This document shows positions 59,277 through 63,593 of a DNA stretch of 64,000 nucleotides, piece after piece. The stretch is from Marinobacter bohaiensis (GTDB lineage Bacteria > Pseudomonadota > Gammaproteobacteria > Pseudomonadales > Oleiphilaceae), in contig NZ_QGEH01000001.1 in the NCBI RefSeq assembly GCF_003258515.1, forward strand, positions 1-64,000, read 5' to 3'. The notes beneath the pieces were generated by a model, which saw only the letters and a list, made by a program, of their open reading frames with translations, had not been told where the DNA came from and ran no database searches. Each line of letters begins with the position of its first letter. Position 1 is the stretch's first letter. Position numbers and translations under genes: made by a program.

Positions 59277-59367
59277 GATCGAAGCGGATGTCCCGAAGGA
59301 GGCATAGGGACGTGCCGGTCGCTATTACGCCCAGGAATGGCCGTTAATAGCAGCGAAGGCAAGGGTG
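59277..59367 (+). repeat. REP-like dispersed repeat, copy 1
   Basis: This segment starts GATCGAAGCG, contains AGGGACGT, GGTCGCTATTA and TTAATAGCAGCG, and ends near AAGGGTG. It matches the reverse strand of 63495-63593 over most of its length, with a 10-base gap near the left end. GCTATTA and TAATAGC (59321-59327 and 59345-59351) form a hairpin with more weakly paired bases inside. It follows the EamA gene by 17 bp, as REP elements usually do. Confidence 0.75.
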
Positions 59368-59565
59368 GAGCACCCGCTTCCCACCCCAAGGCCTGAATGC
59401 CTGTAATGCCGTCTCCTGCCGCAAAGCCCCTTGCCCGTGATGGTTTTGTGAACTTTCCTTTATAGACTCTTTAGCGGGCCGTGATGGGCCCGTGAGCGGG
59501 TGTTGTCAGGCTGCGTCCTGTCCCCTGCGGCATTTGGCCGTGGGTCCATGACAGGAGAACGCATA
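59368..59565 (+). other. Upstream region of the Met-rich peptide gene
   Basis: This 198-base stretch holds no recognised feature except an AT-rich block (TTTCCTTTATAGACTCTTTAG) about 100 bp before the start that probably contains the promoter. No repeat of it was seen in front of the two-component or msrAB genes. Confidence 0.3.
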
Positions 59566-59862
59566 ATGAAAACACTGACCCCGATCGTATTCGCCGCCGT
59601 CACCGTCCTGCTTTCCGGCACCGCAGTCGTCCACGCTGATGAGATGATGGACGGCGAGGACCACATGACGTCGGACATGCAGCACGAGACCATGGCGGAC
59701 GACGGCATGGCCAAGGAGTCCATGCACGACGACATGAAAAAGGATGCCATGCACGACGACGGCATGATGAAAGACGATGGGATGCAGGACGAGATGCATC
59801 ACGACGACATGAAGGACGCCGGCATGAAAGGCGACGACATGAAGCAGGATGCCATGCAGTAA
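59566..59862 (+). CDS. Exported methionine-rich acidic peptide (MXKDX-like)
   Basis: This 98-residue protein has a signal peptide of 24 residues ('VLLSGTAVVHA') and a mature part of 74 residues with 17 methionines, many aspartates and several histidines, in loose repeats of M-K-D, M-H-D-D and G-M. An AGGAG site lies 8 nt before ATG 59566. The pattern resembles the 'pentapeptide MXKDX' proteins and the Met-rich MrpX scavenger peptides. It precedes a two-component system and an exported methionine sulfoxide reductase. Two readings are possible: a sacrificial oxidant sink, or a soft-metal (copper/silver) binder. Confidence 0.8.
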   Translation: MKTLTPIVFAAVTVLLSGTAVVHADEMMDGEDHMTSDMQHETMADDGMAKESMHDDMKKDAMHDDGMMKDDGMQDEMHHDDMKDAGMKGDDMKQDAMQ

Positions 59863-59945
59863 TCCCCGGCAGCCGCCATCGGCCCTGGCCGGTGGTGGCC
59901 GCCCGCGCAGCCCCCGAGGCCGCGTAACCGGCAACTGAGACAACC

Positions 59946-60647
59946 ATGACCCGAACCGTACTGATCATCGAAGACAACCCGGGCATCGGCCAGCTGGTCA
60001 AGATGCACGTGGAAGACATCGGCTGCGAGGCGATCCTGGTGCCGCGCGGCGATGATGGCCTCAAGCGCTACCAGGAAGGCGGCATCGACCTGGTGGTGCT
60101 GGACCTCATGCTGCCCGGCCTCGACGGCCTGTCCATCTGCCGCGAGATTCGCGCCGGGACGGGCTATGTGCCGGTACTGATGCTCACCGCCAAGTCCACC
60201 GAGCTGGACCGGGTGCTGGGCCTGGAAATCGGCGCTGACGACTACCTCACCAAACCCTTCAGCGTGGCCGAACTGGCCGCCCGCATCAAAGCCCTGTTCC
60301 GCCGTGTGGATGCCATGAGCGCTCCGGCCGACGACGCCAGCCCGGGCGATCGCATCGACGTTGAGGGCCTGACCATCGACCCCGAGCGCCGCCGGGTCAC
60401 CGTTGCCGGCAATGAGGTGGAGCTGACCGCGCGGGAGTTCGATCTGCTCTACCACTTCGCCCGTCAGCCGGGGCGGGTTTTCAGCCGCAGCCAGCTGCTG
60501 GATTCCGTGTGGGGCTACAATCACGAAGGTTACGAGCACACCGTCAACACCCACATCAATCGCCTGCGCGGCAAGATCGAGCGCGACCCGTCCGACCCGT
60601 ACTACATCCAGACGGTGTGGGGCGTTGGCTATCGCTTCCGGGACTGA
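59946..60647 (+). CDS. OmpR/PhoB-family response regulator
   Basis: This 233-residue regulator has a receiver domain with phospho-acceptor D53 in 'LVVLDLMLPGLDG', conserved lysine in 'YLTKPFS' and a C-terminal winged-helix domain ('VELTAREFDLLYHFARQPGRVFSRSQLLDSVWGYN', 'VNTHINRLRGKIERDPSDPYYIQTVWGVGYRF'). The sensor gene follows after 3 bp. It lies between the Met-rich peptide and msrAB, which are the probable targets. Confidence 0.95.
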   Translation: MTRTVLIIEDNPGIGQLVKMHVEDIGCEAILVPRGDDGLKRYQEGGIDLVVLDLMLPGLDGLSICREIRAGTGYVPVLMLTAKSTELDRVLGLEIGADDYLTKPFSVAELAARIKALFRRVDAMSAPADDASPGDRIDVEGLTIDPERRRVTVAGNEVELTAREFDLLYHFARQPGRVFSRSQLLDSVWGYNHEGYEHTVNTHINRLRGKIERDPSDPYYIQTVWGVGYRFRD

Positions 60648-60650
60648 ACC

Positions 60651-62138
60651 ATGCTGAATTCGCTGTACACCCGCCTGGCTGCGGGGCTGTTCGTGCTGAT
60701 GGTTGCCGTGGGGCTGGTCTACACCTTCATCAGCACCGTGTCATTGCGCGAGTACTACGCCTCGGTGAATCAGGAGCTGAACCGCAACCTGGCCCGGGAC
60801 CTGGTCTCCGACCGCAACCTGGTGGACGAGGGGCGCATCGACCAGACAGCCCTCAAGGAGCTGTTCGCGCTCTATATGACCATCAACCCCAGCATCGAGA
60901 TCTACCTGCTCGACCCCGACGGCAAGATCCTGTCCTACTCCGCCGATCCGGAGAAGATCAAGCGCAACCGGGTGTCCCTCGACCCCATCCGCAACCTGCT
61001 GGTCGACGAGACCGCCTACCCGGTGCTCGGGGACGACCCGCGCAGCCACGAACGGCAGAAAGCCTTCTCGGTGACGCCGGTGCCCTCGGCTGACAACATC
61101 CAGGGCTACCTCTACGTGGTGCTGCGGGGCGAGGAATACGACTCCGTGGAAATGATGGCCCGGGAAGGGCATTTCATCGGCATGAGCGCCTGGGCCGTGG
61201 CCTTCAGCCTATTGTTCGGCCTGGTGGCGGGGCTGGCGGTGTTCCGTCTGCTGACACGACGTCTGACCCGCCTGACCCGGCTGGTGGAGCAGTTTGAACA
61301 GGGCGACCCGTCCGCCTGGGCCGCCCGGGCGCGCTGGGCCGACGAGCGCGGTCGCAGCCGGGACGAAGTGGACTACCTGGGCGTCGCCTTCGACCGCATG
61401 GCTGACCGCATCGTCTCCCAGATCGAACAGCTGCAGGAGAAGGACACGCTGCGCCGGCGCCTGATCGCCCAGGTCTCCCACGACCTGCGCACCCCGCTGG
61501 CGTCCATGCAGGGCTATGTGGAAAGCCTGCGCATGAAACGGGACAGCCTCTCGCCGGAACAGCAGGGCCGCTTTCTGGATGTCGCCCTGGATGAAAGCCG
61601 GCGCCTGAGTCATCTGGTGGACGAACTGTTCGAGCTGGCGGCGCTGGAAGCTCGCGAGAAACGGCCTCAGCCGGAACCGTTCACCCCGGCCGAGCTGATC
61701 CACGACGTCGCCCAGAAGCACGGCCCCGAGGCGGCCCGCAAGGGCGTCGAACTCCGGGTGACCGGAAATCTGGGGCTGCCCATGGTGCTGGGTGACCTGG
61801 GCATGACCGAACGTGTACTGGACAACCTGATCCGCAACGCCCTGCGCTACAGCCCCGAGCACAGCGACGTGGTGCTCGATCTGGCGGGAGACGAGCGCTG
61901 GCTTACAGTCACGGTGCGCGATGCCGGGCCGGGCATCCGCGAGGCGGACCTGCCCCATGTGTTCGATGCGCTCTACCGCGGCGAGCAGCGCGACGAACCC
62001 GGCCACGCCGGTCTGGGGCTGGCCATCGCCAAGCGCATCATGGATCTGCAGGGCGGCGATATCCGCGTGCGCAACGAGGCGGAGGGCGGCGCGGCGTTCG
62101 CCATTCGCCTGCCGTTCCAGTCGGCGATGGCCGACTGA
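60651..62138 (+). CDS. Membrane sensor histidine kinase
   Basis: This 495-residue kinase has a first helix near residues 7-29, a periplasmic sensor domain of about 150 residues (30-175), a second helix (~180-205), a HAMP segment and a kinase core with H-box 'QVSHDLRTPLASMQGYVE', N-box 'LDNLIRNALRYS', G1 'DAGPGI' and G2 'GLGLAIAK'. The periplasmic domain contains 'YLYVVLRGEEYDS' and 'SIEIYLLDPDGKILSYS', PAS/Cache-like. It is preceded by its regulator. The signal is unknown; methionine or oxidant sensing fits the neighbours. Confidence 0.93.
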   Translation: MLNSLYTRLAAGLFVLMVAVGLVYTFISTVSLREYYASVNQELNRNLARDLVSDRNLVDEGRIDQTALKELFALYMTINPSIEIYLLDPDGKILSYSADPEKIKRNRVSLDPIRNLLVDETAYPVLGDDPRSHERQKAFSVTPVPSADNIQGYLYVVLRGEEYDSVEMMAREGHFIGMSAWAVAFSLLFGLVAGLAVFRLLTRRLTRLTRLVEQFEQGDPSAWAARARWADERGRSRDEVDYLGVAFDRMADRIVSQIEQLQEKDTLRRRLIAQVSHDLRTPLASMQGYVESLRMKRDSLSPEQQGRFLDVALDESRRLSHLVDELFELAALEAREKRPQPEPFTPAELIHDVAQKHGPEAARKGVELRVTGNLGLPMVLGDLGMTERVLDNLIRNALRYSPEHSDVVLDLAGDERWLTVTVRDAGPGIREADLPHVFDALYRGEQRDEPGHAGLGLAIAKRIMDLQGGDIRVRNEAEGGAAFAIRLPFQSAMAD

Positions 62139-62147
62139 TCCCGAATC

Positions 62148-62168
62148 CGTTATGAATTCGTAATAACG
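62148..62168. repeat. Inverted repeat between the kinase gene and msrAB
   Basis: CGTTAT and ATAACG lie nine bases apart, with GAATTC between them. The arms are at 62148-62153 and 62163-62168, 10 bp after the kinase stop. It could be a regulator-binding site for msrAB. Confidence 0.4.
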
Positions 62169-62240
62169 TGGGGAAAATGGTGTGAATCTTTTACCCGATA
62201 CTGGAGTCTCAAAACTGGGACACCCGAAGAGGTAAGTGGT

Positions 62241-63428
62241 ATGAAACGCATAACCCTGGCTGCCATCCTGATGCTGTCCGCCGGCACGGTCGGACTGCAG
62301 GTCTACGCGGCCGATGACGAGCCCAAAGCGGATACCGAATTTGCGCCGGACGATCCGTCGCTGGCGGTGGCCACCTTCGCCGGCGGCTGCTTCTGGTGCG
62401 TGGAAGCCGGTTTCGAGAAGATTCCCGGCGTGGTGGAAGCGGTGTCCGGTTACGCCGGCGGCGATGAGGCCGATCCCACCTACAAGCAGGTGTCCTCCGG
62501 CCGCACCGGCCACACCGAGGCGGTGCAGGTCTATTACGATCCGGACGTGATCACCTACCAGGGACTGCTGCAGGGATTCTGGCGCTTCATGGACCCGACT
62601 GATGCCGACGGTCAGTTCGTCGACCGCGGCCAGCAGTACCGTCCAGAGATTTTCTACGACACGGCCAAACAGCAGCGGTTGGCGGAAGTCTCGCGTGACG
62701 CACTGGCGGACTCCGGCCGCTACGACAAGCCGGTGGTGATCGAGATCACCGCGCTCAAGCAGTTCTACCCGGCCGAGAAGTACCACCAGGACTACTACAA
62801 GAAGAATCCGGTGCGCTACAAGTTCTACACCTTCAACTCCGGCCGCTACCAGTTCATCGAGCAGGTCTGGGGCGAGGATCAGGACATCGATTTCGCCCAG
62901 TTCCGGCCGGAGAACGTGGACTCCGACGACGGAGGGCAGGCGATGAAAGGCGCCGATGCCAAGGGCTTCGACGACGCCAGTTTCGTCAAGCCGAGCGACG
63001 AGAAACTGAAGTCGATGCTCACCGATATGCAGTACAAGGTGACCCAGAAGGACGGCACCGAGCCGGCGTTCGAGAACGAATACTGGGACAACAAGCAGGT
63101 GGGCCTGTACGTGGACGTGGTGTCCGGTGAGCCGCTGTTCTCATCCGCCGACAAGTACAAGTCCGGCACCGGCTGGCCCAGCTTCGTGCGCCCGATCAAG
63201 CCGGACGCGGTGGTCGAGAAAGAGGACAAGTCCTGGTTCATGACCCGCACGGAAATCCGCAGTAGCGTGGCGGACTCCCACCTGGGCCACGTCTTCAAGG
63301 ACGGCCCGGCGCCCACCGGCCTGCGCTACTGCATGAACTCGGCGGCCATGAAGTTCATTCCCAGGGACGAGATGGTGGCGGCCGGTTACGGCGAGTACCT
63401 GGATGAAGTGGGGCCGCCGCTGAGCTGA
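62241..63428 (+). CDS. msrAB: Exported methionine sulfoxide reductase, MsrA-MsrB fusion
   Basis: This 395-residue exported protein (signal '[19 protein letters not shown]') is a fusion of MsrA and MsrB. MsrA has the catalytic 'GGCFWCVE' with C50, and the usual '[23 protein letters not shown]'. MsrB has '[12 protein letters not shown]' and '[17 protein letters not shown]...[13 protein letters not shown]', with the reactive cysteine near residue 364. The zinc-binding CxxC pairs of many MsrBs are missing. It repairs oxidised methionine in the periplasm. A Met-rich exported peptide and a two-component system lie upstream. Confidence 0.95.
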
Positions 63429-63494: not shown

Positions 63495-63593
63495 CACCCC
63501 TGCCTACGCTGCTATTAATGGCCGTCCCTGGCCATAATAGCGACCAGGACGTCCCTGTCCTTCCTTCGGCAGGGGCGTCCATTCGCTTCGATC
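63495..63593 (-). repeat. REP-like dispersed repeat, copy 2 (inverted)
   Basis: This is the reverse-strand match of copy 1 at 59277. Its hairpin is stronger: GCTATTAATGGCC (63511-63523) and GGCCATAATAGC (63530-63541) around a six-base loop GTCCCT, with one bulge. It lies 67 bp after the msrAB stop and ends 42 bp before the receptor gene. The two copies flank 4.1 kb in opposite orientation. Confidence 0.75.

Follow-up and report, generated by a model that had tools for sequence, protein, structure and literature searches.

The stretch of DNA analysed here, called the window below, comprises 64,000 nucleotides of Marinobacter bohaiensis (contig NZ_QGEH01000001.1, positions 1 to 64,000) and carries a block of four genes encoding, in this order, an exported Met-rich peptide, a response regulator (RR), a sensor histidine kinase (HK) and an exported fusion of the methionine sulfoxide reductases (Msr) MsrA and MsrB, hereafter MsrAB. 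Profile scans and the sequence itself agree with the gene content that a preliminary description had given for this block. The features are listed in Table 1. The HK gene starts 3 bases past the RR stop codon, and msrAB lies 102 bases beyond the HK gene.

Table 1. Features of the peptide-RR-HK-MsrAB locus, in window coordinates; the two signals and the -10 element were read from the sequence.
Feature	Position	Strand	Remarks
Bracketing repeat, left copy	59293-59367		75 nt; inverted relative to the right copy, 84% complementary
Box 1, GTGATGGTTTTGTGA	59437-59451	+	11-bp direct repeat of GTGA at the operon promoter; proposed RR site
Candidate -10 element, TATAGA	59461-59466	+	Between the two boxes
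Box 2, GTGATGGGCCCGTGA	59481-59495	+	44 bp (four 11-bp steps) after box 1; pairing accompanies peptide genes
Met-rich exported MxKDx-like peptide gene	59566-59862	+	98 amino acids; signal
12-bp RNA stem-loop	59872-59899	+	Between the peptide and RR genes; folding z = -2.34 for 59855-59948
OmpR/PhoB-type RR gene	59946-60647	+	Response_reg (PF00072) and Trans_reg_C (PF00486)
Membrane sensor HK gene	60651-62138	+	495 amino acids; HisKA and HATPase_c
Box before msrAB, GTTATGAATTCGTAA	62149-62163	+	Shortly past the kinase stop codon, upstream of msrAB
Exported fused msrA-msrB gene	62241-63428	+	PF01625 and PF01641; signal
Bracketing repeat, right copy	63495-63569		75 nt

Azospira is said to pair an exported Met-rich peptide, MrpX, with the reductase YedY (MsrP). 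The peptide of the window has the Met content of such systems (a small exported peptide with about 20% Met or more): its mature part, counted from residue 25, has 74 residues, of which 17 are Met, 20 Asp and 6 His, with no Cys. The recount thus matched exactly the 17 Met reported earlier; the binomial probability of at least 17 Met at a background of 2.5% is 3e-12. The median Met content across 58 related peptides was 23%. Against the TIGR02953 model (penta_MxKDx) the peptide scored 38.3 bits (E = 9.6e-10), short of the curated cut-off of 41. Judged on this score, it is clearly related to the pentapeptide MXKDX repeat proteins but is not a strict member of TIGR02953.

The fusion protein matched the models of both reductase domains (MsrA, PF01625, 208 bits; MsrB, PF01641, 164 bits). 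It has three Cys in all (50, 53 and 364), in the motifs GCFWC (49-53) and RYCMN (362-366). With both domains, the catalytic Cys and a signal-like N-terminus, it has the features of an exported enzyme of the PilB/MsrAB type. Neisseria PilB has an N-terminal thioredoxin-like domain, whereas the window MsrAB does not: NF010625 aligned to it only from profile position 203 of 521. A search of the genome gave no MsrP match, and the place next to the peptide and kinase genes where an MrpX-type system would have MsrP (YedY) is occupied by MsrAB. The genome also encodes a separate msrA-msrB pair without obvious signal, and a DsbD-type protein that would be a plausible electron donor for MsrAB.

The HK has a HAMP match of 22.8 bits, under the 25-bit cut-off, and not a single Cys in its 495 residues, so that a thiol switch within the kinase is excluded. 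Its sensor was modelled with moderate confidence (predicted local distance difference test, pLDDT, 75.9) as a PAS/PDC-like domain. A fold search with this model gave a single match with E <= 0.001, and for that reason no ligand can be named. Over 485 amino acids the kinase is 37.3% identical to a kinase of Escherichia coli ATCC 25922 (33.7% over 169 amino acids for the sensor). Met76 of the sensor, invariant in 23 aligned kinase sequences, aligns with a Met of the E. coli kinase and may have a structural role. In E. coli ATCC 25922, the kinase pair is divergent from genes for a molybdopterin oxidoreductase and a cytochrome b, with a hypothetical protein that has a Met-rich start; in Rahnella, the kinase pair is likewise divergent from such genes and an annotated MXKDX protein is present. 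From this gene order we infer that the ATCC 25922 kinase is OrhK. The OrhK/OrhR system of uropathogenic E. coli is reported to be peroxide-responsive, to be independent of OxyR and to activate directly Msr-like genes and the Met-rich C3568 (PMC8550376). C3567 is given there as 27.6% identical to MsrP, and the Rahnella oxidoreductase reached only 65.6 bits on the MsrP model; the enterobacterial enzymes are for these reasons MsrP-like and not strict MsrP.

According to the accessible part of that report (PMC8550376), the system with C3566-C3568 shares with the window a homologous kinase, sensor included, an RR, an adjacent periplasmic Msr-type enzyme and a Met-rich peptide. It differs in operon order and in its enzyme, an MsrP-like/MsrQ-like pair on the divergent strand where the window has MsrAB. 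The published candidate site, TCACA-N15-TGTGA, differs as well, and no 11-bp repeat of GTGA was found there. The MsrPQ-like target of OrhK/OrhR systems is thus missing from the window, although MsrP occupies the same slot in some relatives (see below).

The composition of the peptides and the relationship of the kinase bear on the idea that the block serves metal handling, the peptide being a Cu(I)/Ag(I) buffer like SilE, PcoE or CusF, the kinase a metal sensor and MsrAB a protector of the peptide's methionines. The window peptide has its six His and HxxM/MxxH spacings, CusS is among the weak fold matches of the modelled sensor, and repair by MsrPQ under copper stress, with a focus on CusF, has been reported in E. 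coli (PMC9302797). In the related peptides, however, His is not conserved: 21 of the 58 mature sequences have at most one His (0-1), 21 lack any HxxM/MxxH, and the invariant or nearly invariant columns are nine Met and two Asp, with no His. The conserved His/Met metal motifs of SilE, PcoE and CusF were therefore not found across the 58 peptides. The enzyme partners are moreover Msr, and the homologous OrhK/OrhR pair is described as responding to peroxide (PMC8550376). Because His varies and Met is conserved, we regard a metal buffer as improbable.

Conservation of the block was assessed in a family sample of 151 genomes, 95 of which have a kinase match at 1e-70. For co-occurrence, the thresholds were E <= 1e-130 for the kinase (84 of the 95 genomes), E <= 1e-6 for the peptide (55 of 58) and E <= 1e-100 for MsrAB (107 of 113). 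Gene neighbourhoods were read in the window, in 55 of the 83 other genomes with an orthologous kinase, in all 11 with a distant kinase and in 14 of the 23 with MsrAB but without an orthologous kinase (one of these loci, L123, is from the distant genus g8). Among the remaining nine MsrAB genomes, three (G012, G024 and G034) have only a distant kinase, seen in L099-L101, and six were left unread.

The kinase is present in all six genomes of the genus, the five others being 77-83% identical to that of the window. The RR, HK and MsrAB genes were found in the same order and on the same strand in 56 of 56 orthologous loci; Marinobacter halodurans, M. oulmenensis and M. changyiensis are among the named relatives that share the gene order. 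The peptide gene accompanies them in 32 of the 56: in 28 it lies upstream of the RR gene by a strict Met-rich rule, in three it sits between the HK and MsrAB genes, and in L054 (98 amino acids, 22 Met) it was missed by the strict rule, found by an earlier one and counted as present. L089, where a Met-rich stretch without recognised signal start precedes the RR gene, was counted among the 24 peptide-less loci. A search for such peptides beside msrAB and the kinase in other genomes had been proposed as a check: RR, HK and MsrAB recur together, and the peptide proved optional.

At the level of whole genomes, MsrAB occurs in all 84 genomes with an orthologous kinase, and in 23 without one. All 55 genomes with a confident peptide match also encode the kinase; no match of this confidence turned up in the 67 genomes that lack it, and 29 of the 84 orthologous-kinase genomes are without one as well. 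The Fisher value for the peptide-kinase association is 5e-20 over the 151 genomes, but since these are phylogenetically clustered it overstates the case. The peptide profile is also incomplete: it gave no match in G129, although the open reading frame (ORF) rule finds a peptide at locus L056 of that genome, so that no match does not equal absence. In 16 of the 55 genomes the peptide match lies away from the kinase. Peptides occurring without msrAB or the kinase had been named beforehand as what would speak against the proposal. The outcome is in its favour: none of the 55 genomes lacks the kinase, and 11 of the 16 displaced genes carry the paired boxes described below.

These counts also touch on a role of the peptide as a redox signal, in which its reduced or oxidised form would bind the Cys-free sensor and set the kinase, in a feedback loop with MsrAB and not as a bulk sink. 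The lack of Cys in the HK, the invariant Met76 and the boxes at the kinase's own operon would suit such a loop; the 29 orthologous-kinase genomes without a confident peptide match would not, Met76 may be structural, and the sensor model is of moderate confidence. We regard signalling by the peptide as possible but unsupported and, as an account of the block, very improbable.

Comparison of the upstream regions of orthologous loci revealed a shared box, GT(G/T)A-N7-GT(G/A)A, which is an 11-bp direct repeat; repeats of this kind are bound by OmpR-family regulators. In the consensus of 72 sites the box is followed by a TA-ACT stretch. A tightened pattern, GTKAYNNWWTYGTRA, had 5 matches in the M. 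bohaiensis genome versus 0 for a reversed control; two of the five are the peptide and msrAB promoters, box 1 being one of the five. A sigma-70 consensus scan reported no promoter at the boxes, and did not report the TATAGA. As to matches elsewhere in the genome, a third box (G000:C2:435441-435455, L230) precedes the gene of a 102-amino-acid exported protein without Pfam match, possibly an extra member of the regulon, and those at C1:1430729 and C1:1799297 have no obvious correctly oriented target.

A box is found upstream of the operon in 54 of the 56 orthologous loci and between the HK and MsrAB genes in 45, where dinucleotide shuffles predict 0.7 and 0.8, respectively. When the count covered the 500 bases before the MsrA active-site codons, and with them any box that overlaps the kinase stop codon, all 56 linked loci had a box before MsrAB versus none of the 14 loci from genomes without an orthologous kinase; of three MsrAB genes from the distant genus g8, whose kinase is itself distant, none had one.

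The number of boxes follows the peptide. Two boxes are present in 27 of the 28 loci with a peptide gene upstream of the RR gene by the strict rule, and also in L054, while 21 of the 24 peptide-less loci have one box; of the other three, L048 has two and the remaining two lack a box. L048 belongs to the genus of the window; its peptide gene is gone and the paired promoter is kept directly before the RR gene. In the three loci with the peptide gene between those of the HK and MsrAB, there is one box at the RR gene and a pair at the moved peptide gene. The 44-bp pair is present at 11 of the 16 displaced peptide genes; at three others the arrangement is partial, and at the last two it is missing. 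Over 970,732 bases from 100 loci, 42 of the 43 box pairs lying within 15-120 bp were spaced by exactly 44 bp, and 40 of these 42 precede a Met-rich signal-bearing ORF by the rule, the other two being L048 and L054.

The association was also examined on the kinase tree. In a 74-locus subset (Marinobacter, Halomonas and close kin), which we selected already knowing that the 44-bp pair is limited to these groups, 14 independent pairs of loci differ in the peptide; about 12.7 of them differ in the paired box in the same direction and 0 in the opposite one. All 96 loci together gave 36 with peptide and box pair, 44 with neither, 15 with peptide only and 1 with the pair only, that is 16 independent pairs, of which about 12.7 agree, 0 disagree and 3.3 show no difference. 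The Halomonas-type loci behave alike: the five with a peptide have the 44-bp pair and the two without have one box. More distant lineages show other spacings (11 or 22 bp) or no recognisable box. On this comparative evidence the four genes form a conserved and apparently co-regulated unit.

Two further situations were noted around displaced peptide genes. In L124 and L125, a displaced gene with paired boxes, the sole peptide match of these genomes, is divergent from an MsrP-like/MsrQ-like pair. In L126, L131 and L134, the displaced gene lies beside the same kind of 607-amino-acid ORF, and L126 and L134 also resemble each other in an AAA-type ORF upstream. The idea that the ORFs near the three displaced genes are nitric-oxide-reductase accessory genes was dropped, Pfam giving only generic AAA matches for one piece and none for the other.

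The optional presence of the peptide gives weight to another explanation, general envelope repair, according to which the kinase and MsrAB would be the functional unit and the peptide an optional co-regulated accessory, not the main substrate of MsrAB. The RR-HK-MsrAB core is kept without the peptide in 24 of the 56 loci, and in Haemophilus influenzae a periplasmic MsrAB reportedly repairs proteins of the envelope (PMC9404787). An accessory of this kind is harder to reconcile with the lack of any confident peptide match without the kinase in 151 genomes and with the paired boxes of 11 of the 16 displaced genes, for which reasons the peptide looks like a dedicated member of the regulon. We judge envelope repair unlikely on the whole, but with the core kept where the peptide is missing, it must be taken seriously as an alternative.

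A wider survey of related kinases concerned the reductase encoded next to them. Among the best 80 of a longer list of loci from named genomes, 43 have MsrAB, MsrA or MsrB nearby, 10 have MsrP and 27, some of them on short contigs, have neither; a peptide gene is present in 34. MsrQ lies beside MsrP in 9 of the 10 MsrP loci, and the four MsrP proteins that were scanned are all strict members of NF003767 (413-473 bits, cut-off 207). In seven Halomonas/Vreelandella loci, MsrP comes directly behind the kinase, with a box, by a relaxed pattern, at or beside the kinase stop codon. A tree built from 134 kinases requires four changes of the MsrP label, even with trust restricted to its starred branches, and nests the Halomonas group in the Marinobacter MsrAB group; the method was a quick one, several long branches elsewhere in the tree are flagged, and the label changes do not tell gain from loss. 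Since true MsrP is found in the MsrAB slot of some relatives, the function is very likely methionine sulfoxide reduction linked to a Met-rich peptide. The strongest argument for a methionine sulfoxide role is, in our view, that a sensor and peptide of one kind are followed by either of two unrelated enzymes that share an activity. A broader proposal, to which we give about an even chance, is that of a modular regulon: one family of Cys-free kinases would control whichever periplasmic Msr sits behind it (MsrAB or MsrPQ), together with a mobile peptide gene that has its own paired-box promoter, the peptide being an inducible and rechargeable periplasmic redox buffer powered by thiols (MsrAB) or quinones (MsrPQ) depending on the lineage.

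In the same survey, 21 of the 150 related-kinase loci scanned have exported Spond_N-like proteins near the RR, often paired and some with MsrAB or MsrB (L099-L102, L104, L105, L109, L170, L174, L177, L187, L202, L204-L206, L208, L210-L213 and L217). One representative was confirmed as PF06468 (39 bits).

Several known systems resemble the block in part. In Brucella, BcrXQP combines a Met-rich peptide and MsrPQ-type enzymes under an extracytoplasmic function (ECF) sigma/anti-sigma pair (PMC8315932). Like BcrXQP and MrpX/YedY, the window pairs an exported Met-rich peptide of MxKDx type with a periplasmic methionine sulfoxide reductase; unlike them, it has a thiol MsrAB where they have an MsrPQ-type enzyme, and, as far as the portion of the Brucella report at hand goes, a two-component system where BcrXQP has the ECF pair. 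HprSR-MsrPQ of E. coli, reported to respond to H2O2 and HOCl (PMC10151825), also ties a periplasmic Msr to a two-component system, but no Met-rich peptide is mentioned in the accessible part of that source. Finally, MsrAB is linked to envelope or exported methionines in H. influenzae (PMC9404787), where it is periplasmic, and in Bacillus cereus, where it goes with Met-bearing exoproteins and is called cytoplasmic (PMC5526929); in the consulted portions of these two reports no dedicated Met-rich peptide or kinase is described. The preliminary description had seen no account of this exact arrangement. OrhK/OrhR (PMC8550376) is already a published case of a two-component system that goes with a Met-rich peptide and an enzyme of Msr type, so that only the MsrAB version was not found. 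Neither the combination of Met-rich peptide, kinase pair and MsrAB nor the paired box is described in the literature searched, which did not include the Azospira MrpX paper.

Taking the observed gene content and order, their conservation, the genome-wide linkage, the distribution of the boxes and the replacement of MsrAB by MsrP in relatives together, we consider it probable that the block is a self-contained, oxidant-induced regulon for a periplasmic methionine sink and its repair, of the MrpX/OrhKR kind. The Cys-free, OrhK-type kinase would, by homology, sense oxidant stress in the envelope and phosphorylate the RR; the latter would bind the 11-bp GTGA direct repeats, as the conserved boxes suggest, and would switch on both the peptide-RR-HK operon, whose peptide promoter is distinguished by the paired boxes, and msrAB, which has a single box of its own. 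The peptide would then be oxidised sacrificially, in place of other proteins, and the exported MsrAB would reduce the methionine sulfoxides of the peptide and of other envelope proteins. MsrA and MsrB activities together cover both methionine sulfoxide diastereomers. Electrons would probably be delivered to MsrAB by DsbD.

Several points weigh against such a sink. With 24 of the 56 loci peptide-less and the kinase-MsrAB core kept there, the core function does not depend on the peptide. The 44-bp pair fades beyond Marinobacter and Halomonas, 15 of the 96 loci having a peptide without the pair, and no Msr gene was recognised nearby in 27 of the best 80 loci of the wider family. The OrhK-like kinase is a distant one (37%); the regions before the E. 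coli and Rahnella genes showed no box as defined, only TGTGA half-sites. Lastly, the electron route to MsrAB is our inference.

Other features of the locus were also considered. Upstream, the block is bordered by genes for an EamA-type transporter and a GTP cyclohydrolase I, and downstream by a chemoreceptor fragment. Gene order and bracketing repeats had together been taken as signs of one unit; the order of the RR, HK and MsrAB genes is borne out by the 56 orthologous loci, but the repeats belong to an intergenic repeat dispersed in the genome, with seven matches (six of 73-75 bp and one of 27 bp), and therefore do not delimit a unit. Their inverted arrangement around the block is probably due to chance. 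The profile scan of eight window proteins gave no hint of a mobile element, other mobile genes not having been looked for. The strong hairpin between the peptide and RR genes has no T-run that would make it a terminator, and terminators in the scan were no commoner than in shuffled sequences. The hairpin is possibly a partial terminator or a stabiliser, of minor importance, and could raise the level of the peptide relative to that of the regulator.

The comparison indicates that sacrificial methionine defence is modular in marine and halophilic proteobacteria and is not tied to the molybdenum-dependent MsrPQ. Because nature has placed either of two unrelated reductases behind one kind of sensor, it can be asked whether the peptide itself is the substrate or whether only the reduction of methionine sulfoxide in the envelope is needed. 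The absence of Cys from the kinase restricts the possible modes of oxidant sensing, and the conserved boxes offer a direct reporter for the signal.

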